Below are positions 6,331 to 55,427 of a stretch of DNA of 64,000 nucleotides, in pieces. Below the pieces are notes generated by a model. It did not search any database, was not told the origin of the DNA, and saw only the letters and a program-made list of their open reading frames with translations. The translations under genes were made by a program, and so were the position numbers. The stretch's first letter is position 1. Every line of letters starts with the position of its first letter. The stretch covers positions 1 to 64,000 of the forward strand of contig CAJTEM010000027.1 in the NCBI GenBank assembly GCA_910575255.1, in the 5' to 3' direction. This stretch comes from Lachnospiraceae bacterium. GTDB lineage: Bacteria > Bacillota > Clostridia > Lachnospirales > Lachnospiraceae.

Positions 6331-6380
6331 ATGTAATGAGTAAGAAGATAAATAGGTGTTTAATCTTGGAGGGAATCAGC

Positions 6381-7658
6381 ATGTTAATAGAATTAAGGGC
6401 GAAAAACTGCTTTTCGTTTTCAGATGAGATTCGATTTTCGACAAAAGCAGATATGAGAAATAAAAAGTTCTCATCCAATGTCCATACAGAGAATAATTTT
6501 AATATTTTGAAAACAGTAGGAATCTATGGTCCAAATAACGCAGGTAAGACATGCTTGGTAAAATGTATCCGCAGTGCCAAGAACATTTTATTAAACCAGA
6601 AACCCCGTATCATGCCCAATATTTTTCAAGAAAGTACAATATGCCAGCTGGGTATTACATTTTTGGAGGAGGGCAGAGAGTTTTCCTATGATTTTTGGTA
6701 TGATGATAAAAAGGAAGAATATCCTTATGAAAAGTTTGCTGAAATCACAAAAGATCAATATGGGAACGAAAAAGAAACTGTTTGGCTTTTAAAGGATATC
6801 ATCAATGGGAATTGCCAATATGGTGATGAAGATCTTTTAAAAATGATGCCGCTTATATCTCAGAGTAACCTGCTATTCTATCTGGTAGATTCCAGTAAGT
6901 TCCAGCAGCTGGCGGAAATGAAGCGGATTGTCACAAAGTTTGCTTCCAGGATTGATATTGTCAATATGAATAATATCCCTTTAAAACGTACCATCAACCT
7001 CATGAAAAATCAAAATGATATTCAAAGGAAAGTCGTGGAGTTCATCAAGAATTCTGATCTGTATATGGATGATTTTGAATATGCGGATATCGATAAGATT
7101 CGCGTAAAAATGGATTCTGACGAGGAAAAACCGGAGGAAAAGGCTCTTGATATCCCCGAGCAGATTATGGATCAGATCCGACTGGTATCCGTTTATAGAG
7201 GGGTTGCGGTCCCCAGCGTGCTTTTTGACTCTACGGGAACAAAAAAGATCGCTGCCCTTGCAAGTTATATCATAGAGGGAATTGAACAGGGCAGAATTCT
7301 TGTTGTGGACGAACTGGACAGCAGCATTCACTTTAAATTGACCAGAGCAATAGTTGCTATGTTTAATAATGAACTGAATACCAACGCACAGATGATATTC
7401 ACTGTACATGATATCAACTTGATGGATTGCAAAAAAATGTTCCGCAAAGAACAGATCTGGTTTGTTCATAAGGATGATACAGGCATTTATGTTTATTCTC
7501 TGGCAGAGTTTACCGCACAACAGGGGGTACGAGATACTACGGATATTATGGAGAAGTACCGAAAAGGGGTATTAGGTGCCCTTCCAGATCCCGAACTGAT
7601 TCGATCTTTATTAAGCCTCAAAGGAAATCGGAAGGAGGTGCCAGTTGATGGCGAATAA
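6381..7658 (+). CDS. AAA15-type ATPase (RloA/AriA/OLD-like), system 1
   Basis: A 425-aa ABC/SMC-like ATPase of the AAA15 group. It begins with the family pattern (IELRAKNCFSFSDEIRFS), has Walker A GPNNAGKT at residues 50-57, Walker B ILVVDELDSSIHF at about 304-316 and the switch histidine in MIFTVHDINLMD. Proteins of this group pair with a RloB or TOPRIM partner in anti-phage systems. The ATG at 6381 is chosen since GGAGGG lies 8 nt upstream. The partner gene starts before its stop (overlap near 7648), so the pair is translationally coupled. Locally AT-rich compared with the element DNA upstream, consistent with separate acquisition. Confidence 0.82.
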   Translation: MLIELRAKNCFSFSDEIRFSTKADMRNKKFSSNVHTENNFNILKTVGIYGPNNAGKTCLVKCIRSAKNILLNQKPRIMPNIFQESTICQLGITFLEEGREFSYDFWYDDKKEEYPYEKFAEITKDQYGNEKETVWLLKDIINGNCQYGDEDLLKMMPLISQSNLLFYLVDSSKFQQLAEMKRIVTKFASRIDIVNMNNIPLKRTINLMKNQNDIQRKVVEFIKNSDLYMDDFEYADIDKIRVKMDSDEEKPEEKALDIPEQIMDQIRLVSVYRGVAVPSVLFDSTGTKKIAALASYIIEGIEQGRILVVDELDSSIHFKLTRAIVAMFNNELNTNAQMIFTVHDINLMDCKKMFRKEQIWFVHKDDTGIYVYSLAEFTAQQGVRDTTDIMEKYRKGVLGALPDPELIRSLLSLKGNRKEVPVDGE

Positions 7659-8214
7659 GCTTCCTCAGATTTTTACGGGCAGTAAAATATGTATTATATG
7701 CGAAGGAGACGAAGAATATGAATATCTAGAAAAATTGATCTCTTTAGATGTATAGAGTAAAAATTATTGTTTCCAGTTAGAGAATGCTGAAGGAAATGGA
7801 AATATTCCTGCACGATATCAAGATAAATTTCAGAACGGCTCATACGATTTGGTTTTAATATTCTGTGATACAGATAAAAAGCCCTATGAGCAGTATGTAG
7901 ATATTAAGCGAAAGATTAGTGAATTCCACGGGGTTGAAAATGCAGCAGACCATGTTGTCATATATGGGAATCCATGTACTATGCAGATTATCATTGAGCA
8001 TTGGGATGATGTAGTACTTGGTTCCCATAAAAAGAAGAAAAATGCTCCAATTATTTTTAACCTTACAGGTATAGAGGGATATAAGGGCAGAGCAGATCAG
8101 CGCCAGGAATTATTCTCCAGGATCACTAAAGAAAATTATCAGGAAATGCAAGAGAGGATTAAATGTCTGCCTTCTGATGATGAGGTAGAAGGAAGCACTA
8201 ACATTGAGGTATGA
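7648..8214 (+). pseudogene. RloB/TOPRIM-like partner of system 1, interrupted by an in-frame TAG
   Basis: The frame opens with SKICIICEGDEEYEYLEKL (E19-G20 of a TOPRIM-like fold), then meets a TAG at 7753-7755 (codon 36). In the same frame it continues (NYCFQLENAEGNGNIPARYQ) through the acidic D-x-D motif in LIFCDTDKKPYEQY to a stop at 8214. The match to RloB-like proteins on both sides shows one gene with a nonsense codon, not two genes. GGAGG lies 8 nt before the ATG. The end also looks shortened. As written, system 1 would be dead unless the amber codon is read through or is a sequencing error. Confidence 0.7.
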
Positions 8215-8469
8215 TTGCATAATTTTTCTCCTTTAAAAGAGCAAAATAAGCAGGTAGGTTCGAAAATGCAAAGTGAACGTAGAAGTCTCACTTGCACCTT
8301 CATTGAAAAACTGCTAATATTATTGCTAATACGACTATGGGAATCATACCGCTATGAGGTGGACGTAGGTGCTCTTAGGTGGAAATGAAAGGTTCAAAAG
8401 TGTTGATTTTATTGGACTTGGAGATACCACAAGGATTAGGCTGAACCTGCGTGGAAACAGCCCTTTTAA
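8215..8469. other. Intergenic, no gene recognised
   Basis: All frames are broken by stops. The stretch leads directly into the tRNA 3' fragment and probably represents the end of an integrated element next to its attachment site, which is inferred from position. Confidence 0.35.
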
Positions 8470-8512
8470 CTCCTAAGCGGTAGGTCGGGTGTTCGAGTCA
8501 CCTCGGGAACGC
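8470..8512 (+). other. 3' part of tRNA-Arg (CCU): probable attachment-site remnant
   Basis: Starting in the anticodon loop (CTCCTAA), the sequence continues with the 3' anticodon strand (GCGGT), a short variable region and a good T arm (GGGTG-TTCGAGT-CACCT, with G53-C61 and TTCGAGT loop), then CGGGAAC as a 3' acceptor strand. The 5' half (acceptor, D arm, 5' anticodon strand) is absent: the bases before the loop do not pair. Integrases often use exactly this 3' segment as core site, so this is best read as an attR/attL copy. Confidence 0.55.
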
Positions 8513-8521
8513 TGGGAACAC

Positions 8522-8561
8522 AGCCGAAAGCCCTCGATTTTAGCGGATTTTCGGCTTTTTT
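8522..8561 (+). terminator. Terminator after the tRNA fragment
   Basis: AGCCGAAA (8522-8529) pairs with TTTCGGCT (8549-8556), followed by a T run. It is the type of terminator that follows tRNA genes and would have come with the attachment site. Confidence 0.75.
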
Positions 8562-8647
8562 CATTCCAGCGTCAAAACGCCAGGTATCTGCTGCGCATGG
8601 CGGGAATTCTAAAATAAAAGATATTGATAAAAGGTGGTCTGACAGAG

Positions 8648-9895
8648 ATGAAAAACACGGGAAAACAAAAATGGTTTATTGCTGCAGGTGTCCTTCTTTT
8701 TATAATGTCCGGATGCGGCAAAAAGGCAGAGGAAAATCAGGAGATACCGCAAAATGCAGAAGTCAGAGAAGAATATTCGGAAAAGGAACAAATGGGAGAA
8801 AACCGTGATTCCGATGGGGAATCCATTGCGGAGCTTTATCGTGATATTTATGAACAGGCAGCCGAAATGGGGACGGTTGGAGAGCTGGAAGTGACAAGAC
8901 GCATGGTTGAACGGATCGGAGAACATGGTTATGCCGTGGTGGACGAAGAAAATCAGATTGACATGGTCGGTTCGGAACAGGTTTTACGCTTTTGCAGATC
9001 CGTTGAGGAAGCGCAGGATGATAAACTTACCGTAATCGTAATCACCAGCTCCGGCGGATTTATAAAGTATGACCTTCATACAGCAGCAGGCGCAGTAAAT
9101 GTAACCAGAGGATATTATCAGTATAGCAATGAGATTCTGAATAGCTTGAGTACCGTAAGCTATCCGGCAGAATCGTGGGAATACACAAAAGAAGGCTACC
9201 TGCTGTTTGAAGGAAGTTATTTTTCCGAAAGCTATTATGCGCTTTCCCTCAGTAATGAACCGGAACATACGGCGCTGAGGGTTGAGCCGCTGGATGAAAC
9301 GTGCAGGGAATTAAACAGACTGTATTTGCTGCCGGTGGGGTATGGGAGAAATAATCTTTTCCTTACGGACTGGAGTGAACAGCATTTGGGGAATCTGGAT
9401 TTTTATGATTTATTCGACAGGTTCTACCCGGATATCTATGGGCAGCCGGTTCCTTTTACGCCGGATGATGATTTAGACGCCGGAGCCGTTTACAGGATAC
9501 CGGCAGATGTATTTGAACATGTCATTGAGCGTCATTTGCAAATTGATTACGAGGAGCTGCAGAGGAAGGCCGCCTATATCCCGGAGGATCAGACTTATGA
9601 ATACAGACCGAGAGGGTTTTATGAGGTTGAATATCCGGATATCCCATATCCGGAGGTGGTCAGTTATACGGAAAATGATGACGGAACGTTAGCTTTGACT
9701 GTGAATGCCGTATACCCGGAGGAAAACACCTCCAGGGCGTATACCCACAAAACCGTGGTCCGTCCCCTTGACGATGGAGGTTTTCAGTATGTATCCAATC
9801 AGGTTATTTTTCCGGAGGGCGGCTGTGAGCCGTGGTGGCATTCAGACCGGCTGACAGAAGACCAGTGGAAGAAAGTATATGGAGGGGATGATTAG
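8648..9895 (+). CDS. DUF6070-like lipoprotein
   Basis: A 415-aa exported lipoprotein. The signal peptide (KWFIAAGVLLFIMSGC) ends in lipobox MSGC, followed by an acidic linker. The body has two similar beta-rich halves and ends with YTENDDGTLALTVNAVYP and VVRPLDDGGFQYVSNQVIFP. I associate this pattern with DUF6070, found in Lachnospiraceae; function unknown. The ATG at 8648 (AGGTGG about 10 nt upstream) gives a proper signal peptide. A paralogue follows immediately. Confidence 0.7.
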   Translation: MKNTGKQKWFIAAGVLLFIMSGCGKKAEENQEIPQNAEVREEYSEKEQMGENRDSDGESIAELYRDIYEQAAEMGTVGELEVTRRMVERIGEHGYAVVDEENQIDMVGSEQVLRFCRSVEEAQDDKLTVIVITSSGGFIKYDLHTAAGAVNVTRGYYQYSNEILNSLSTVSYPAESWEYTKEGYLLFEGSYFSESYYALSLSNEPEHTALRVEPLDETCRELNRLYLLPVGYGRNNLFLTDWSEQHLGNLDFYDLFDRFYPDIYGQPVPFTPDDDLDAGAVYRIPADVFEHVIERHLQIDYEELQRKAAYIPEDQTYEYRPRGFYEVEYPDIPYPEVVSYTENDDGTLALTVNAVYPEENTSRAYTHKTVVRPLDDGGFQYVSNQVIFPEGGCEPWWHSDRLTEDQWKKVYGGDD

Positions 9896-45563: not shown

Positions 45564-46859
45564 AATGAACACTACAAGCTGGACCGGATCAGCCGCTCCA
45601 TTCTGGATTTTGCGAACATGATGGAGCTGTTCCAGGAGTATGACGTGGAGTTCGTTTCCTCCACGGAAAAGTTCGACACCTCCACCCCAATGGGGCGGGC
45701 CATGCTGAATATCTGCATTGTGTTCGCCCAGCTGGAACGGGAGACCATCCAGAAGCGCGTCACGGACGCCTACTATTCCCGGTGCCTGAAAGGCTTCCAT
45801 ATGAGCGGCCAGGCCCCCTACGGCTTCCGGCTGGAGCCGACCACGGTTGAGGGCATCCGCACAAAAATGATGGTGCCCGACCCGGCAGCCGCCGACCATG
45901 TACGCCTGATGTTTGAGATGTACGCCGAGCCCGGGACCTCCTTCGGGGACATCAGCCGGTACTTTGAGGAAAACGACATCAAAGTTCACGGGAAATCGCT
46001 GTTCCGTCCCTTCCTCTCCCAGCTGCTCCGCAACCCGGTATATGCGCAGGCAGACCTGGAATTGTATGAGTTCTTCAAAAGCTAGGGGGCGGCAGTCGTC
46101 AATGACGCCGCCGACTTCGCCGGGACAAACGGCTGCTATCTCTACCAGGGGCGGGACGTGAAGGAGGACAAGGACAGGAGCCTGAAAGACCAGATACTTG
46201 TTATCGCTCCCCATGAAGGGCTGGTTTCTTCTGACACCTGGCTGAAATGCCGAAAAAAGCTCATGGCGAACATCACCTTCCAGAACGGGAGGAAGGCCCG
46301 GAACACATGGCTGGCCGGTAAAGTGAAATGCGGAAAATGCGGCTATGCTTTAAAAGTCACCCGCAACCCTTCTGGCTATGAATACCTCCGGTGCAATAAA
46401 CGGTCCGACCACAAGGGCTGTCCGGGGTGCGGCACTCTCCGAAAGGCAGAATTTGAACAGTTCATTTTCACGGCTATGGGAGAGAAATTCCGGGATTTCA
46501 AACACCTCCGGGGCGGTGAGGAAAAGGCCAATCCGAAATTGACCGCCTATCAAGTGGAGCTGGCACAGGTAGAGGCGGAAATTGAAAAGCTCCTTGATAC
46601 GCTGACCGGGGCAAACGCCACCCTGCTTGCCTACGCCAACAAGAAAATCGAGGAACTGGACACGCGCCGCCAGAAAATCACAAAGGCGATTGCCGATTTA
46701 TCCGTGGAGACCATTTCCCAGCAGCAGATTGATTTGCTGTCCGGCTATCTGGACGACTGGGAGAATATCAGTTTTGAGGATAAGAGGAAAGCCACGGATG
46801 GCTTGATTTCATCAATCAGCGCAACCAGCGAGTATGTAAAAATAGAGTGGAAAATCTGA
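45564..46859 (+). pseudogene. Large serine recombinase, N-terminally truncated and amber-interrupted
   Basis: The frame enters in the catalytic domain after the serine (KLDRISRSILDFANMMELFQ, then MGRAMLNICIVFAQLERETI, the conserved E-R helix), runs through the recombinase domain (GFHMSGQAPYGFRLEP, GTSFGDISRYFEEN) to a TAG at 46083-46085, and continues in the same frame with the zinc-ribbon (CGKCGYALKV then YLRCNK and GCPGCG), coiled coil and C-terminus. The first ~70-90 residues, with the nucleophile serine, are missing. Both lesions make it inactive; it explains why the element is fixed. Confidence 0.82.
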
Positions 46860-48259: not shown

Positions 48260-48863
48260 AACGATCAGTGGGTTGTGGTCAGGACGCTGTATGACAGCGG
48301 TACGGAGAAGGAAGTGATTAAAAAAATCAGTGGTATCCCCCTCCAGGCAGCAGAGGAAGATGCCCTCTCCCGGATGGAGCCTCCTTTTTACGGGTTCTGG
48401 ATCAGCGGTCAGGATGGCTTTGATATTTCCGTGGCGGCCTCCAGCGGTGTCTGACTTAAAAATGACGGGGCGTTTATCGTCATACCATACTATTTTCCTT
48501 CTGAAAGCGGATGAACAGACAGCAGAAAGCCCGGAGGGTCTGACTATGACGGTGGAGGACATCGGGACAAGTGAGATTACGGTACGGATTGCCAATAACA
48601 GCGGGGAAGAATTTTCTTACGAGGAATACTTTTCCCTTCAGAAGCAGATAGACGGCCAGTGGTATACGATACCGGTAAGGGAGGATAACGTAGGATTCCA
48701 GGATATCGCCCATATCCTTCCGGATGGGGAGAGCGTCAGTGAAACCTATAACCTTGACCTGTACGGCACGCTGGAACCGGGGATATACCGGCTGGTGATG
48801 AAAATGTTGAGCGCTGAGTTTCTGGTGGGCCATGGGAGGGTGGCAGGAACAGAAGGGGAATAA
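48260..48863 (+). pseudogene. Ig-like membrane protein, broken paralogue
   Basis: Homologous to 30780-31474: TLYDSGTEKEVIKKISGIPL, then frame breaks around 48455-48490, then a long intact stretch (LTMTVEDIGTSEITVRIANN, EEYFSLQKQIDGQWYTIPV, VGHGRVAGTEGE). The N-terminal anchor is missing. Confidence 0.8.
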
Positions 48864-49074
48864 ACGCTGTTAAAAACAGCATGGAGAAGGGATGTAACAG
48901 AAAATGCAAAGTCCTTAAAGGAGGGACATTCGACATATGATATGTGTTGGATGTCCTGTTTTTGTTTAATAACTTCATTGAGATATATGAGAAAATATCT
49001 CATATATCGTTTACAAAACTAAAAAAATGAGTATAATAGATATTGAAAGACATATAAACTGGAGGGAAAAAGAG
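48864..49074. other. Leader region of the defence-like operon
   Basis: AT-rich. Inverted repeat near 48915-48957 (AAGGAGGGACATTCGACATA against TATGTGTTGGATGTCCTGTT, partial). No gene. Confidence 0.3.
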
Positions 49075-50301
49075 ATGCTGTGCCAATTTACAGTGAAAAA
49101 TTATAAAAGCATTCGGGATGAAATGACCTTTGATATGCAGGCAGCTGCTATTTCTGAACATGAAAATAATATAATTCGTGATAAAGATGGAGAATTGTTT
49201 TTGCCGATTTCTGCAATATATGGGCCAAATGGAGGTGGAAAGTCAAACGTATTGGAGGCAATGCATACTTTGGCTTCAAAAGTACTTCGTCCATTATATG
49301 CAACTGGTGATAAGGAGGAACGTATATTTCTTCAGAAAAGGCTGCTTATCGAACCTTTTGCATTCTCAAAAAAAACGAAAAGCCAGCCAACAGAGTTTGA
49401 AATTTTTTTCCGTACAGAAATTGCGGAGTATCGGTATAAACTCCATATCATGAAGGATGTTGTAAATTATGAAAGTTTGGACCGTGTAAAATTGGACACG
49501 GGACGACGTTCAGCGCTTTTCGAACGGGATACGGAAGAAATTTCTTTAAAAGGTGTATTTTCCAAACTGAAAGCCAGTGAGGACTTGTCCGCGACATTAC
49601 CGTTGCTGTCTTATCTTGGGATCACTTATAAAAAAAATGAGGTAGTAAAAGATGTTCTGGATTGGTTTGAATACGGAATTGATTTTTTAAACTATGGTAA
49701 TCCGATTGAAGAACTTCGTATGGCAGTATCAAATTCAGAGGATGTGAAGCAGCTTATGCTTGACATGATACAGGAAATGGATCTGGATATCGTGGATTTT
49801 CGTGTAGTTGAGGATGAAAATGACAGAATCGATGTGTATACAAAGCATTTGGTGGATGGCTATGAGACGGAGTTAAACTTACTGGAAGAATCCAGCGGGA
49901 CAAGGAAATTATTTGGTTTAATGCCATTTATTGCTGGATGTTTACTTACGGGAACCGTTTTGGTTATTGATGAACTGGATGCAAAGATACATCCTGTTTT
50001 GCTGCGTCATATTATTATGATGTTTAATGATATGAGTATTAATAAAAAGAAAGCACAATTAATCTTCACATCCCATGATCTGTCTACAATGAACAATGAA
50101 GTGTTTCGAAGGGATGAAATCTGGTTCGTGGCAAAAGGGAATGCTCAAAACTCTAAATTGTATTCATTGGTGGAATTTAAGAACGAAAAAGGCGAATCTG
50201 TTCGTAAGGATGCCAAATTCGATAAGCAATATCTGGAAGGAAAATATGGCGCTGATCCGTATCTCAAAAGAATTATAGATTGGGGGAAGGTCAATGCCTA
50301 A
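49075..50301 (+). CDS. AAA15-type ATPase (RloA/AriA-like), system 2
   Basis: A 408-aa ATPase of the same group as the gene at 6381. QFTVKNYKSIRDEMTFDMQA at the start, Walker A GPNGGGKS at residues 50-57, Walker B TVLVIDELDAKIHP at about 293-306, switch region LIFTSHDLSTM. In PARIS and related systems this type of ATPase holds a TOPRIM nuclease partner in check until a phage trigger. The ATG at 49075 has GGAGGG 8 nt upstream. It overlaps the RloB gene by 8 nt. Intact. Confidence 0.88.
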   Translation: MLCQFTVKNYKSIRDEMTFDMQAAAISEHENNIIRDKDGELFLPISAIYGPNGGGKSNVLEAMHTLASKVLRPLYATGDKEERIFLQKRLLIEPFAFSKKTKSQPTEFEIFFRTEIAEYRYKLHIMKDVVNYESLDRVKLDTGRRSALFERDTEEISLKGVFSKLKASEDLSATLPLLSYLGITYKKNEVVKDVLDWFEYGIDFLNYGNPIEELRMAVSNSEDVKQLMLDMIQEMDLDIVDFRVVEDENDRIDVYTKHLVDGYETELNLLEESSGTRKLFGLMPFIAGCLLTGTVLVIDELDAKIHPVLLRHIIMMFNDMSINKKKAQLIFTSHDLSTMNNEVFRRDEIWFVAKGNAQNSKLYSLVEFKNEKGESVRKDAKFDKQYLEGKYGADPYLKRIIDWGKVNA

Positions 50302-51004
50302 AAAAGCCGGAATGGAGAAGTGGAAAAAGAAGCGCTGTCAGGAGTATCTGGAAATGAAGCAGTACAGATACTATATCTTCTGCGAGGGGCAGCAGACAGA
50401 ACCTCTGTATTTTATGGGATTCAAAAAGCTGATTGAAGATAATCCGATTTATAAGGATATGGTTCTAATTGAAATAGAACCCTGTCAGGCAGAAACGATG
50501 CGAGTAATCGGAATGGCGGAAAGATATGTAAAGAAGAACAAAATCCAAAAGGGCCAGATTTGGTGCGTTTATGATAAAGACAGCTTTCCGGCAGATGATT
50601 TTAATGGTGTTGTCAATCGGGCAGAGAACTTAAATAAAGAAAGTTCTCAACTTCAATATCATACAGCATGGAGTAATGAATGTATTGAGTTCTGGTTTCT
50701 TTTGCATTTTGCATATTATACAGCGAATAATCACCGGGGGGAATACATAGCATTTCTGAATGATCAATTCAGGGAATTGGGGATTGGAAAATATCAGAAA
50801 AATATGAAAGATATTTTTGATATTTTGACGGAAAAAGGAAATCCAAAGCTGGCAATTCGATATGCCAAACGTATCATAAACGATGGTAAAAGTAAGACAC
50901 CAGCAGAAATTGCGCCGGGAACGAAGGTGTATGAGTTGGTGGAAGAACTGGTTAAGTATTTGCCGGAGCATGTTGCACAGAGATTTAAGGAAGCTTGCAA
51001 TTAA
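50294..51004 (+). CDS. RloB family protein with TOPRIM-like motifs
   Basis: A 236-aa protein. RYYIFCEGQQTEPLYFMGF (E31-G32) and WCVYDKDSFPADDFN (D94-x-D96) are arranged as the conserved Glu and D-x-D of a TOPRIM nuclease/primase fold. SNECIEFWFLLHF is a strongly conserved RloB motif, followed by HRGEYIAFL. RloB proteins are named from Campylobacter restriction loci and pair with AAA15 ATPases. That the pair is anti-phage is inference from family context. Translationally coupled to the ATPase. Confidence 0.82.
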   Translation: MPKKAGMEKWKKKRCQEYLEMKQYRYYIFCEGQQTEPLYFMGFKKLIEDNPIYKDMVLIEIEPCQAETMRVIGMAERYVKKNKIQKGQIWCVYDKDSFPADDFNGVVNRAENLNKESSQLQYHTAWSNECIEFWFLLHFAYYTANNHRGEYIAFLNDQFRELGIGKYQKNMKDIFDILTEKGNPKLAIRYAKRIINDGKSKTPAEIAPGTKVYELVEELVKYLPEHVAQRFKEACN

Positions 51005-51017
51005 AGGGGGAGAGTAT

Positions 51018-52985
51018 TTGGATACATCAGTAAAAAACAAAAAACTACGAACTTTGCCTTGGTATGCTTTACTTGATATTGCAGTAAAAAAGGGAATAGA
51101 AGAAAAAGAAGTTAACGGAAAGGAAAAGAATACAATAATAGATAAGATATTATCTTATGGGATCCTTTCGGATGAGGAAATAGAGCAATATGTAAATGAT
51201 TATATTTATGGTGACCGAGTAACGTTTACGTTATGGACATTTCAATCATCGTTGAAAGATTCAGATTATGGTATTGTTAATTCCCTGGAAAATGTGGAGG
51301 AGGAATATCTTTCTGTTTCTGGATATAGAAAATTAAAAATTTTATCTGTAAAAGAATATGAGGACCGTACAGAAGTTTTATATGTTTATAGCAAAGAATA
51401 TACTTATGTTAATGAGGATGGGCAAAATGCCAGTGTATGGGAACAACATAGAGGATGCTTATGGATTGGAAAGGCATCAACATATCTTGCCTGCATTAGT
51501 AAACATGAGAAAATGACGGCTTTTATGACAAAATACATTGCTGATTTATTTAAAAACCCGGTAACACAAATAAAGCCCCCAAAATCAGCAATTGACAAAT
51601 GCACAAATTCTAAGGCCATAAGCAGAATTGTGTTGCAGGGAAAAGGTGGAGAGAAAACAATTGTGTCAAGAGCTGGGGGAATTACGCCTGATCAAGAAGA
51701 AGAGATTAGCAGAATTCGTTCTGAGAGAATTGATACATCTGGGAGTTTTATCTCGGCAATTACCGAGAATATTGATGCTACGATTAAATATAATGTTAGA
51801 AACGGCAGTATTGGAATTTATAAACATTTGCCAGCTTCTGTTCTGTTTGAGTGGTCTGAAAATTCGATTAAAATTATTTTGGAGGAAATTGAAAAATTAA
51901 AAGGGAAGCCAGCTGAAGAAATTTTTAAAGAAGTAGGACAGGAAATAAAATGGACAGGGGCAAGCGGAATTGAAATTACGCAACTGAATTGGTATTTGAC
52001 ACAAATTATAGCTTCTCTTGATAGAGACGAGTATGAGTTCCAGATTCCGGTAGATAAATTATCGGTATTGGATAATAGTAAATGGTTTATCAAGTTTCCG
52101 AGAATATATTGCAAAACTTGTGATTCTTATGAGACTCCATATTGCACTGAATGTGGAACAGAGTTGAAGATGGGAAGGGGGATAATAAAAGAATGTGAGT
52201 GTGGGGCACCCTTAAAAATTAAATGTGCGGATGGTCATGATACTTGTGAGATTGTAAATTGGTATGTTCCAAGATCTATATTGGTAAGTATGATCAATAA
52301 AAATATTCAGAAAATATTTAAAGACTATTCTTTAGAATATAATATCTGCATTGTAGGCGATATGGGATATATTGTTAATGGAACAGAGAATTTGCAAACA
52401 GAAGTTGAAATTCCATTTGCAGCAATAGAATGCTTTAAACATGATTCAGTGGCCCTTACACATAGAGTGAAAGCTTATGCGGTAAATATGAATGAGAAAT
52501 GTGGTTCTGGAACCTGTTCATATGCAAAAATTGAAAAATGTACTGAAAATGATGGAATGGCATGTTTACCTAAAGTTTTTTATACCATTTTACCAGGCTA
52601 TCGTCCACAACCTCACAAAGGCATGGAGTATGGGGATGTTGCTGCGGAAGTGAAAATTGGAAATAAAGCATATGATTTAAAGGGTATCATAAAAAAGAAT
52701 AGTGAAAACCGACCTAGAAAATCTGTTAATGATGATGAAAAAATAAGAAAACCACTATTATCAACATCAGGAGAAGGGCAGGAGATAATTCGTCAGTTTG
52801 TGGAGCAGGGAATGATAGATGCTCGTTGTCAAATAATAGCAGTAGTCATTCCGCAATATATTGATGCAGGATTTAAAGGAACTTTGAGACACTTGGCAAG
52901 GTTGTCTGGAAAGAAAGTAACATTTATTGAATTGGACGAGTTATCCGAGCTGATTTCAATTAACAAAAAAATATTGGTATCATAA
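51018..52985 (+). CDS. Zinc-finger protein of unknown family, third gene of the ATPase-RloB operon
   Basis: A 655-aa protein not recognised as a whole. An N-terminal SAP/HeH-like helical segment (residues ~6-40, WYALLDIAVKKGIEEKEVNG) suggests DNA binding. A four-cysteine knuckle pair lies at about residues 373-388 (YCKTCDSYETPYCTECG), then ECECGAPLKIKCADGHDTC and further Cys near residue 500. Near the C-terminus, YGDVAAEVKIGNKAYDLKG could be a PD-(D/E)xK-like strand pair, and GQEIIRQFVEQGMIDARCQI then VTFIELDEL a Rossmann-like end; both are tentative. TTG start 13 nt after the RloB stop with AAGGGGGAG upstream. It could be a sensor or nuclease added to the ATPase/TOPRIM pair. Confidence 0.6.
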   Translation: MDTSVKNKKLRTLPWYALLDIAVKKGIEEKEVNGKEKNTIIDKILSYGILSDEEIEQYVNDYIYGDRVTFTLWTFQSSLKDSDYGIVNSLENVEEEYLSVSGYRKLKILSVKEYEDRTEVLYVYSKEYTYVNEDGQNASVWEQHRGCLWIGKASTYLACISKHEKMTAFMTKYIADLFKNPVTQIKPPKSAIDKCTNSKAISRIVLQGKGGEKTIVSRAGGITPDQEEEISRIRSERIDTSGSFISAITENIDATIKYNVRNGSIGIYKHLPASVLFEWSENSIKIILEEIEKLKGKPAEEIFKEVGQEIKWTGASGIEITQLNWYLTQIIASLDRDEYEFQIPVDKLSVLDNSKWFIKFPRIYCKTCDSYETPYCTECGTELKMGRGIIKECECGAPLKIKCADGHDTCEIVNWYVPRSILVSMINKNIQKIFKDYSLEYNICIVGDMGYIVNGTENLQTEVEIPFAAIECFKHDSVALTHRVKAYAVNMNEKCGSGTCSYAKIEKCTENDGMACLPKVFYTILPGYRPQPHKGMEYGDVAAEVKIGNKAYDLKGIIKKNSENRPRKSVNDDEKIRKPLLSTSGEGQEIIRQFVEQGMIDARCQIIAVVIPQYIDAGFKGTLRHLARLSGKKVTFIELDELSELISINKKILVS

Positions 52986-52991
52986 TGCAAT

Positions 52992-53024
52992 AGGAACCTT
53001 TGGAAAAATCCAGAGGTTCTTATT
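52992..53024 (+). terminator. Terminator of the defence-like operon
   Basis: GAACCT (52994-52999) pairs with AGGTTC (53014-53019), with inner GG/CC pairs, followed by a T-rich stretch. Confidence 0.6.
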
Positions 53025-53103
53025 GTTACTATACGCTGTTAAAGATTTGACGGAGGACTCGAAAATAAAGAAGTGGGAATGAAGTTTGTCTGTTCTGAAA
53101 AGG

Positions 53104-53144
53104 GCAAAAAAAGTCGAGTACATTTTCCGGCATGCTGTTATACT
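53104..53144 (+). promoter_or_regulatory. Promoter of the UvrA-like gene with shared 15-mer
   Basis: GCAAAAAAAGTCGAG (53104-53118) lies exactly 20 bp upstream of a TATACT box (53139-53144). The same 15-mer lies exactly 20 bp upstream of TATGAT at 55497 before the AraC gene. Confidence 0.6.
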
Positions 53145-53180
53145 ACTAAGACCAGGCCAAAGGCCAGAAAGGAGAACATC

Positions 53181-55427
53181 ATGCCAGATCAGAATCATAT
53201 CGTTATTCAGGGCTTATGCCAGAACAATCTGAAAAATATTTCCTTAAAGATACCAAAACAAAAGCTCGTTGTATTCACCGGGGTCTCCGGCTCCGGGAAA
53301 TCCAGCATCGTGTTTGACACCATTGCGGCAGAGAGCCAGCGCCAGATGAACGAGACCTACAGCGCTTATGTCCGGGGCAGGCTCCCGAAGTATGAGAAAC
53401 CAAAGGCGGAAAGAATCGAAAACCTTTCCCCCTCGGTCATCATTGACCAGAACCCACTTGGGGGCAACGCCCGTTCCACGGTGGGGACCATCAGCGACAT
53501 GTATTCCGCCCTGCGGCTGCTCTACTCCCGGATCGGGGAACCCCATGTGGGAACACCCTCCTGCTTTTCCTTCAACAATCCGGGGGGCATGTGTCCGGAG
53601 TGTTCCGGATTGGGGAAGGTGATGACGCTGGACGTCCTTCCTCTTATAAAGGAAGATAAAAGCTGGAATGAGGGGATGGTGGAGCTGCCCACGTTCCGTG
53701 TGGGGAACTGGTACTGGAAGCAGTATACAGACAGCGGCCTGTTTGACCTGGATAAAAAATGGCAGGACTATTCCGAAAGGGAACGGAACCTTCTGCTGTA
53801 CGGTTCGGAGGAACCGGGCGGGAAGCGGGTGTCGAAGCAGGTGGAGGGCATCCACAACATGATGAGCCGGCTGCTGTTAAAAAGGGACAGCTCCGAACTT
53901 GGGGAAACTTCTGCAGGCCGGCTGACAAAATATGTCCGGGAATCCGACTGTCCCCTCTGCCATGGGAAACGCCTAAACGGGGCGGCCCTGTCCTGTAAGA
54001 TTGCCGGGTATGATATCAGTGAGATGTGTGAGATGGAGTTGACAGAACTGAAACGGGTTCTGGGGACAGTCACAGACCCAAGGGGCAGGTCGGTGGCGGA
54101 GAGCCTAGTTATGACCCTGACCCGCATGATCGAGATCGGCCTCCCTTACCTTTCCCTGAACCGGGAAGCGGCTACCTTGTCCGGCGGGGAGGCACAGCGC
54201 CTGAAGCTGGTGCGCTACATGGGGAGCGCCCTCACGGGCATGCTCTATATTTTCGATGAGCCAAGCACCGGGATGCACCCACGGGATGTACACCGCATGA
54301 CCAGGCTGCTGCGTGCCCTCCGGGATAAGGGGAATACGGTCCTGGTGGTGGAGCATGATAAGGATGTAATCTCCATTGCGGATGAAGTGATCGATGTGGG
54401 GCCGCTGGCAGGAAAAAACGGCGGGGAGGTTCTCTATCAGGGCAGCTATCAGGGGCTCTTTGGCTCCGGCACATTAACCGGGAAGGCCATGGAGATGGAG
54501 ATACCCTTTAAGGCGGAGCCAAGGAAGCCCCAAGGGTTCCTGCCTGTCAAACATGCCAGCCTGCACAATCTGAAACAGGTTTCCGTTGATATCCCCCTGC
54601 GTGTGTTGACTGCGGTGACCGGTGTGGCAGGCTCCGGGAAAAGCTCCCTGATCCGGGACGTGTTTGCCGGACAGTATCCGGAACAGGTCATCCTGGTGGA
54701 CCAGTCCCCGGTGACAGCCACCGGGCGTTCAACCCCGGCCACCTTCCTGGGGTTTTTCGATGATATCCGAAAACAGATGGCGAAAGAAAACAACGTGAGC
54801 GCCGCCCTATTTTCCTTTAACAGCAAAGGCGCCTGCCCGGTCTGCAAAGGACGGGGGGCTGTCACCACCGAGCTGGTCTTCATGGACCCGGTGACGACCA
54901 CCTGCGAGGCTTGCGGCGGGAGCCGTTACAGCAACGAGGCGCTTTCCTATTTATACAAAGGGAAAAATATTGTGGAGATTCTGGATATGAGCGCAGAGGA
55001 GGCCGAAGGCTTCTTTTCCGGCCGTCCGAAAATCTGCAGGGCGCTGCACGCCATGGTGGAGGTGGGGCTTCCCTACCTTTCCCTTGGACAGCCCTTATCC
55101 ACTCTGTCAGGGGGCGAGCGGCAGCGGGTAAAGCTGGCAAAATACCTGGGACAGAAGGGGAACATCTATGTGCTGGATGAACCCACCACCGGGCTCCATG
55201 CTTCCGATGTGAAGACAATTATGAAACTTCTGGACGGCTTTGTGGAGCAGGGGAACACGGTGGTTGTGATCGAACATAACATGGATGTGGTAAAGCTGGC
55301 GGATTACGTGATTGACATGGGGCCGGACGGGGGGACGATGGGAGGCGAGGTAGTCTTTACCGGAACCCCGCAGGAGCTGGCGGAATATGGACAGACCATT
55401 ACGGCTGATTATCTAAGGAAATGCTGA
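53181..55427 (+). CDS. UvrA-like ABC ATPase (resistance-type paralogue)
   Basis: A 748-aa twin ATPase. First nucleotide-binding half: Walker A GVSGSGKSS, zinc cysteines in CPECSGLGK and CPLCHGKRL, signature LSGGEAQRL, Walker B YIFDEPSTGMHP. Second half: GVAGSGKSS, CPVCKGRGA with CEACGGSRY, LSGGERQRV, YVLDEPTTGL. It is ~200 residues shorter than housekeeping UvrA and lacks the UvrB-binding insert, as in the UvrA2/DrrC-like group linked to drug and DNA-damage tolerance. GAAAGGAG is about 8 nt before the ATG. It heads a block with AraC regulators and an exporter. Confidence 0.87.
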   Translation: MPDQNHIVIQGLCQNNLKNISLKIPKQKLVVFTGVSGSGKSSIVFDTIAAESQRQMNETYSAYVRGRLPKYEKPKAERIENLSPSVIIDQNPLGGNARSTVGTISDMYSALRLLYSRIGEPHVGTPSCFSFNNPGGMCPECSGLGKVMTLDVLPLIKEDKSWNEGMVELPTFRVGNWYWKQYTDSGLFDLDKKWQDYSERERNLLLYGSEEPGGKRVSKQVEGIHNMMSRLLLKRDSSELGETSAGRLTKYVRESDCPLCHGKRLNGAALSCKIAGYDISEMCEMELTELKRVLGTVTDPRGRSVAESLVMTLTRMIEIGLPYLSLNREAATLSGGEAQRLKLVRYMGSALTGMLYIFDEPSTGMHPRDVHRMTRLLRALRDKGNTVLVVEHDKDVISIADEVIDVGPLAGKNGGEVLYQGSYQGLFGSGTLTGKAMEMEIPFKAEPRKPQGFLPVKHASLHNLKQVSVDIPLRVLTAVTGVAGSGKSSLIRDVFAGQYPEQVILVDQSPVTATGRSTPATFLGFFDDIRKQMAKENNVSAALFSFNSKGACPVCKGRGAVTTELVFMDPVTTTCEACGGSRYSNEALSYLYKGKNIVEILDMSAEEAEGFFSGRPKICRALHAMVEVGLPYLSLGQPLSTLSGGERQRVKLAKYLGQKGNIYVLDEPTTGLHASDVKTIMKLLDGFVEQGNTVVVIEHNMDVVKLADYVIDMGPDGGTMGGEVVFTGTPQELAEYGQTITADYLRKC

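Follow-up and report, generated by a model that had tools for sequence, protein, structure and literature searches.

The window, a 64,000-nucleotide (nt) stretch of a Lachnospiraceae bacterium (assembly GCA_910575255.1, contig CAJTEM010000027.1, positions 1 to 64,000), carries a run of three genes encoding an ABC/OLD-type ATPase, an RloB protein and a 655-amino-acid protein that is called gene 3 here (Table 1). A first-pass annotation of the sequence described this layout, and it holds: all three frames are open, the ATPase and RloB genes overlap by exactly 8 nt, and gene 3 follows after exactly 13 nt. In the five trio loci measured (the window and loci L016, L019, L022 and L024) the overlap is 8 nt and the gap 12 to 16 nt. 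The trio is AT-rich, as was also claimed, with a G+C content of 36.0% against 45.2% for the whole window and about 49 to 56% in the 2-kb windows on both sides. Its proposed setting in element debris agrees with serine recombinase remains upstream at 45618-46859 (+), which span two open frames and comprise part of a resolvase domain and a zinc-ribbon segment. By eye, recombinase-like frames also lie directly after gene 3 in L020 and L022, and one lies nearby in L039/L040.

With a promoter in front, three closely spaced frames and a terminator-like hairpin behind, the three genes look like one transcription unit. The putative promoter ends 37 nt upstream of the ATPase start, and similar boxes are present in aligned AbiL loci, although the number of candidate sites in 48800-53200 (13) is not above that in shuffled sequences (mean 16.0). 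An in-frame ATG at 49027 lies inside the promoter, in the spacer that separates the -35 and -10 boxes, which makes 49075 the more plausible start for the ATPase. The arms TGAG...CTCA of the palindrome next to the -35 box are kept at the same position in 7/7 aligned close-subfamily AbiL operons, with or without gene 3 (the window, L022, L024 and L072-L075), and therefore suggest a putative operon-specific operator. Across the host genome the motif TATGAG-N7-CTCATA is not in excess, with 16 sites (at most one mismatch) against 18 for the reversed control. The hairpin after gene 3 is not listed by a simple terminator scan; L024 has a near-identical stem there, and L022 a different hairpin at the corresponding position.

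Genes 1 and 2 are, by their family profiles, AbiLi and AbiLii, an OLD-type ATPase with an RloB/TOPRIM protein, which is a known kind of pair and agrees with the RloAB-like assignment made from the sequence alone. The Pfam RloB score is 136.6 bits (cut-off 31.5). The ATPase has a Walker A motif, GPNGGGKS, at residue 50 with its lysine at K56, and the RloB residues noted earlier are present as E31 of a CEG motif and D94 of a DKD motif. At E up to 1 the sole PADLOC match of gene 2 is AbiLii, and AriB gives none. RloB is related to OLD/TOPRIM domains and has been found both in AbiL and in operons of type I restriction systems, and toxicity-neutralisation tests of the toxin-antitoxin type are reported for a TOPRIM_OLD(D44, RloB-like)/AAA pair of Clostridium algidicarnis (excerpt of PMC10440598). 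The window has a second AbiLi-like ATPase at 6336-7658 (+; PADLOC AbiLi 3.7e-65), followed by a short frame at 7849-8214 (+) with a D-x-D motif that by eye resembles a truncated RloB/TOPRIM protein and has no PADLOC match.

Gene 3 has no accepted match in Pfam (two matches, both below cut-off), none in PADLOC or NCBIfam at E up to 1, and none in PHROGs at E up to 0.01. The first-pass annotation gave it a SAP/HeH-like start, cysteine knuckles and a possible PD-(D/E)xK end, and knew no system with such a trio. The start is not supported, as Pfam gives no SAP/HeH match at E up to 1 and the model has only a small helical bundle at residues 1-62. The largest recognised domain is instead an RdgC/CENP-L-like fold, present in the model although no RdgC or RexA sequence profile matches in Pfam or NCBIfam at E up to 1. 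The other two parts stand: the zinc-ribbon cysteines are invariant in the alignment, and the C-terminal model contains a PD-(D/E)xK core fold. The catalytic-type residues E537, D540, K559, E589 and Q593 are invariant in 21/21 aligned rows, even though the two main clades are only about 20% identical. Position 557 is an invariant isoleucine, giving I557-x-K559, and the acid expected two positions ahead of the lysine is missing. Catalysis would therefore need an acid from elsewhere, for example E537 or E589; E537, E589 and Q593 are all invariant and could substitute in the triad. The absence of a known counterpart is likewise upheld, since no profile library searched names gene 3, and no paper on the trio was found in a literature search to which subscription papers and preprints were mostly out of reach. 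The pair is of a known kind, and none of the libraries or literature searched describes gene 3.

The unit has clear borders. L022 (Clostridium sp. Marseille-P3244) and L024 (an uncultured Acetatifactor) have settings unrelated to that of the window, and blastn finds no match of 150 bases or more between them and window positions 40000-64000 beyond the trio unit. Because homology stops at these borders, the trio and its promoter appear to persist together as a unit across different locations. Six further records (L016, which is contig G264 of L009; L019, which is contig G283 of L010; L017, L018, L021 and L023) carry a nearly identical trio, in blocks of 97-99% nt identity, and most of them have long flanks in common. 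The ratio of nonsynonymous to synonymous substitution rates (dN/dS) for gene 3 is 0.075-0.114 in 6/6 comparisons among the window, L020, L022 and L024, and this purifying selection argues that the trio frames are not due to chance. For RloB the ratio is 0.062 in the one of three comparisons where it can be estimated; in the other two, as in 3/3 for the ATPase, dS is saturated and the nonsynonymous proportion (pN) lies far below the synonymous one (pS).

The pair and gene 3 are separable. A sample of 299 genomes from the host family contains 24 with RloB-type genes (called at E up to 1e-15) and three with gene 3, all three inside the trio, so that 21/24 RloB-positive genomes lack gene 3. This absence rests on a whole-genome search, taken from shared handles to cover the same 299 genomes. 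The RloB neighbourhoods viewed are the three trios and one stretch from each of 16 genomes; those of five genomes (G007, G009, G051, G054 and G182) and three further RloB copies (G262 C93, G076 C66 and G269 C131) lie outside the fetched stretches. No gene 3 or remnant of it is present in the 16 further AbiL stretches, one of which (L072) ends 224 nt after RloB and is uninformative. In the other direction, a genome-collection scan with two peptide patterns gave at least 26 gene-3 loci, a lower bound biased to members that keep those patterns. All come from Bacillota or from entries labelled simply as bacterium, and several are near-copies. The pair lies directly upstream in 8/26 (L016, L017, L018 with broken frames, L019 and L021-L024), and 17/26 (L025-L041) are without it, counting L031, which starts 44 nt before gene 3 with its upstream gene outside the sequence. 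In the remaining locus, L020, an RloB remnant at the contig edge is followed by a 262-amino-acid gene, an AbiTii-like gene and then gene 3.

The first-pass annotation held that homologues of gene 3 found mostly away from the pair would count against a trio system. That is the pattern family-wide, with 17/26 and 21/24 apart, and it is not the pattern within the AbiL-linked clade. All gene 3 proteins linked to AbiL fall into one clade, with 100/100 support and a single change, a count as low as that in 0/500 shuffles. The clade has six rows, three of them near-copies, and represents four distinct lineages plus near-copies. In the AbiLi and RloB trees, where L072 is labelled as lacking gene 3, trios and gene 3-free pairs are interleaved and three changes are needed, of which well-supported branches force two for AbiLi and one for RloB. 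The single clade suggests one recruitment followed by co-inheritance, which reaches down to 65-74% protein identity. The simplest history is that gene 3 was captured once by an AbiL operon and then co-inherited, and that the gene in the third slot was sometimes lost or exchanged. With halves that are separable family-wide yet form one clade when AbiL-linked, gene 3 resembles a captured accessory module, not part of an obligatory three-part system. In L074 (6531-10033) the AbiL pair is followed, in overlapping frames, by SIR2 (two frames) and HerA genes, and the slot after RloB thus takes other defence genes.

Relatives of gene 3 appear mostly to accompany restriction-modification (R-M) and Dnd systems (Table 1). 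By profile or similarity label, R-M or Dnd genes are present in 13/17 pair-less stretches, and in 10/14 once the near-copies L028, L033 and L040 are set aside; in the fetched stretches of L030, L034 (a 3.8-kb contig) and L041 no such genes were recognised. Similarity to R-M proteins of other loci is seen in 9/17 pair-less gene-3 loci (L033 through its near-copy L032 only) against 0/16 AbiL loci that lack gene 3 (Fisher p 0.0009), or 6/14 against 0/16 without near-copies (p 0.005); the control and test sets are not matched for taxa or stretch length. Two genomes from a different family of the phylum carry distant gene-3-like proteins, in L013 (12199-14487, -, E 1.8e-8) and L014 (11204-12313, +, E 6e-4), and by eye both proteins adjoin a murB-like gene. 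In Butyrivibrio sp. Su6 (L011, 114-2605, +) a PbeC/DndD-like ATPase (3.6e-75) with an unlabelled 176-amino-acid partner lies upstream of Dnd genes.

Table 1. Features of the trio operon in the window, and genes found near relatives of gene 3 in other loci
Feature	Position or locus	Strand	Evidence or remark
Palindrome ATATGAGA-N5-TCTCATAT, directly upstream of -35 box; possible operator	48985..49005	.	exact, zero mismatch
Sigma-70-type promoter TTTACA-16-TATAAT (putative)	49010..49037	+	11/12 consensus positions; best of 13 candidate sites in 48800-53200
AbiLi-type ABC/OLD ATPase, 408 amino acids	49075..50301	+	PADLOC AbiLi 6.5e-85, AriA 3.2e-29; Pfam AAA_21 2.2e-27
RloB/AbiLii TOPRIM-type protein, 236 amino acids, E31, D94	50294..51004	+	Pfam RloB 1.5e-39; PADLOC AbiLii 3.9e-30
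Gene 3, 655-amino-acid RdgC-like/zinc/PD-(D/E)xK-like protein, TTG start	51018..52985	+	AF2 model pLDDT 84.1, pTM 0.73
Gene 3 residues 65-295, RdgC/Iml3(CENP-L)-like domain	51210..51902	+	predicted fold matches RdgC and Iml3
Gene 3 residues 365-410, zinc-ribbon region	52110..52247	+	C365, C368, C376, C379, C395, C403 invariant, 21 rows
Gene 3 residues 495-516, further cysteine cluster	52500..52565	+	C495, C508, C516 invariant in 21 rows
Gene 3 residues 533-648, PD-(D/E)xK-like nuclease domain	52614..52961	+	E537/D540/K559/E589/Q593
Terminator-like hairpin after gene 3	52987..53026	+	folds at -25.9 kcal/mol
Unit common with L022	48976..52986	+	blastn, 72.9% nt identity
Unit common with L024	48985..53024	+	blastn, 72.7% nt identity
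Type I or type I-like R-M near gene 3	L025, L027, L028, L032, L033, L037
D12 methylase and DpnII near gene 3	L026
DndB and DndE near gene 3	L029		with C-, D-, A-like genes named by domain and order
Type ISP near gene 3	L035
C5 methylases near gene 3	L036, L038, L039, L040		L036 with HNH; L039 and L040 with NotI-like enzyme
HSDR_N protein and helicase near gene 3	L031		counted as unclear, outside the 13

These features point, with a modest balance of probability in its favour, to an abortive-infection operon of the AbiL type into which a restriction-associated DNA nuclease was captured; it would combine an RNA- or translation-killing arm with a DNA-cutting arm. By analogy with PARIS and AbiL, the AbiLi ATPase would hold RloB in check until a phage event relieves it, and the freed RloB would cut RNA, probably tRNA, and stop translation. 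The RdgC-like fold of gene 3 probably closes round DNA, its zinc ribbons probably read some DNA feature, and its C-terminal domain probably cuts. For such an operon we infer a nuclease activity, a DNA and an RNA target and a phage phenotype, and the two arms may or may not act on each other, through ATPase control of the nuclease or a clamp that triggers AbiL; the link between pair and gene 3 is so far evolutionary and, by layout, transcriptional, not mechanistic.

Several observations weigh against this explanation, beginning with the missing acid at position 557 and the unequal R-M control set. The nuclease domain alone gives Foldseek matches that fail E 0.001 (best 0.013), so that it is recognised by its VIA Z scores and its motif, and several of those scores (MspJI, AspBHI and Avs4) are below 8, a level that unrelated models often reach. 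The RdgC match has a large root-mean-square deviation, 5 Å by VIA and 8-9 Å by Foldseek, and RdgC and RexA themselves are not known to be nucleases. An R-M-like neighbour, a type IV-like restriction enzyme upstream of the trio, is found only in L022 of 11 trio stretches (two regions counted twice). Close pairs lack gene 3, with AbiLi and RloB 87 and 81% identical to those of the window in L073, 74 and 76% in L074, and 68 and 73% in L075, and AbiL therefore does not need it. Conversely, in L018 (Acetatifactor muris DSM 23669, 7011-8984) gene 3 is intact while the ATPase and RloB frames are broken.

The separability of the halves would also fit passive stacking, in which two independent defence genes share one promoter in a defence island and co-expression is their sole link. 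The genes intervening between the RloB remnant and gene 3 in L020, and the restriction enzyme near L022, are in keeping with this, but a one-clade association and unit borders common to unrelated settings exceed what random stacking would be expected to give; it is a genuine but lesser possibility. The same clade, co-inherited for long under purifying selection with gene order and 12-16 nt spacing conserved, would suit an integrated three-part system as well. Here gene 3 would be a sensor that recognises replication or recombination DNA of a phage through its clamp and zinc ribbons, and this recognition, or nicking of the DNA, would trip AbiLi and free RloB. Lambda RexA, thought to act upstream of RexB, offers a model for such a role. 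RexA binds DNA, acts in phage exclusion and is structurally homologous to RdgC (excerpt of PMC11077077). This integrated version is allowed, though the data do not require it, and it seems doubtful.

Two further alternatives concern what gene 3 does to DNA. As a modification-dependent (type IV-like) restriction enzyme it would act on modified-base phage DNA that escapes ordinary restriction. Its relatives, however, adjoin genes for 5-methylcytosine (C5 methylase), N6-adenine (HsdM, D12) and phosphorothioate (Dnd) modification, none of which can be the family-wide trigger, so that a modification-dependent trigger common to the whole family is unlikely; no modified-base reader profile matches gene 3 in Pfam or NCBIfam, although it may have a reader of a kind not yet catalogued. 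This role is improbable. The protein could instead be a regulator that binds DNA, or a structural protein, whose nuclease fold is inactive. Its non-canonical I-x-K motif and the precedent of RdgC, a DNA ring that is not known to be nucleolytic, speak for this, but invariance of all five catalytic-type residues across such distant clades does not, and among the alternatives it is the least credible.

With the captured-nuclease reading preferred, gene 3 reveals a so far uncatalogued family of proteins predicted to be DNA nucleases with a clamp-like grip; they recur beside different restriction systems, and one member was apparently recruited once into an AbiL operon. PADLOC knows the AbiL pair and has no gene 3 model. 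Two questions become testable: do abortive systems take on DNA-cutting enzymes as second effectors, and what does a nuclease that grips DNA through an RdgC/CENP-L-like fold recognise? The boldest version is an unlikely one: a three-part immune operon in which an RdgC/RexA-like clamp-nuclease would detect phage replication or recombination DNA, cut it and trip the AbiL switch, coupling DNA cleavage to translation shut-off. Members of the family would then plug into restriction, Dnd and abortive systems of Bacillota alike, and their fold would make them bacterial nuclease relatives of the kinetochore proteins CENP-L and CENP-N.

Among known systems, AbiL (AbiLi/AbiLii) of Lactococcus and RloA/RloB have the same ATPase and RloB genes, order and family profiles. 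AbiL is described as bicistronic (excerpt of PMC10440598), whereas the window operon adds a third, nuclease-like gene in the apparent transcription unit. PARIS (AriA/AriB) shares the plan of an OLD-type ABC ATPase with a separate TOPRIM protein, and the AriA profile does match the window ATPase, but AbiLi matches it far better and the toxin gene is RloB/AbiLii, with no AriB match. PARIS is described with two proteins, an ATPase hexamer that sequesters AriB until a phage trigger frees it, and AriB then dimerises and cuts tRNA (excerpt of PMC12409363).

The predicted fold of residues 65-295 relates gene 3 to RdgC, lambda RexA and the kinetochore proteins Iml3 and Chl4, which share folds (excerpt of PMC11077077). 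Unlike them, gene 3 adds the N-terminal helical bundle, zinc ribbons and nuclease-like domain, and its match to RexA itself is weak. The C-terminal part has a fold like the nuclease-type domains of FokI, AF1548, MspJI/AspBHI and Avs4. In FokI the catalytic D and K are 19 residues apart, the same spacing as D540 and K559. Motifs of this group have an acid or Q before x-K, whereas gene 3 has I-x-K and different partner domains. One protein of the RdgC-histone operons known from Bacillus and Halobacteria likewise has an RdgC-like fold with extra N- and C-terminal parts and an operon setting; its partners are a histone and a membrane protein, and the excerpt of PMC11390915 compared here, by description only, mentions no nuclease or zinc ribbon. 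The OLD-ABC/TOPRIM and OLD-ABC/REase backup modules around BREX, reported in a paper whose main text does not contain the terms RdgC and RloB, have a similar theme of OLD ATPases with nucleases beside restriction-like systems (PMC12839542). As described in the excerpt of that paper, the BREX-side modules pair the ATPase with either a TOPRIM or a PD-(D/E)xK protein, whereas the window operon appears to hold both.

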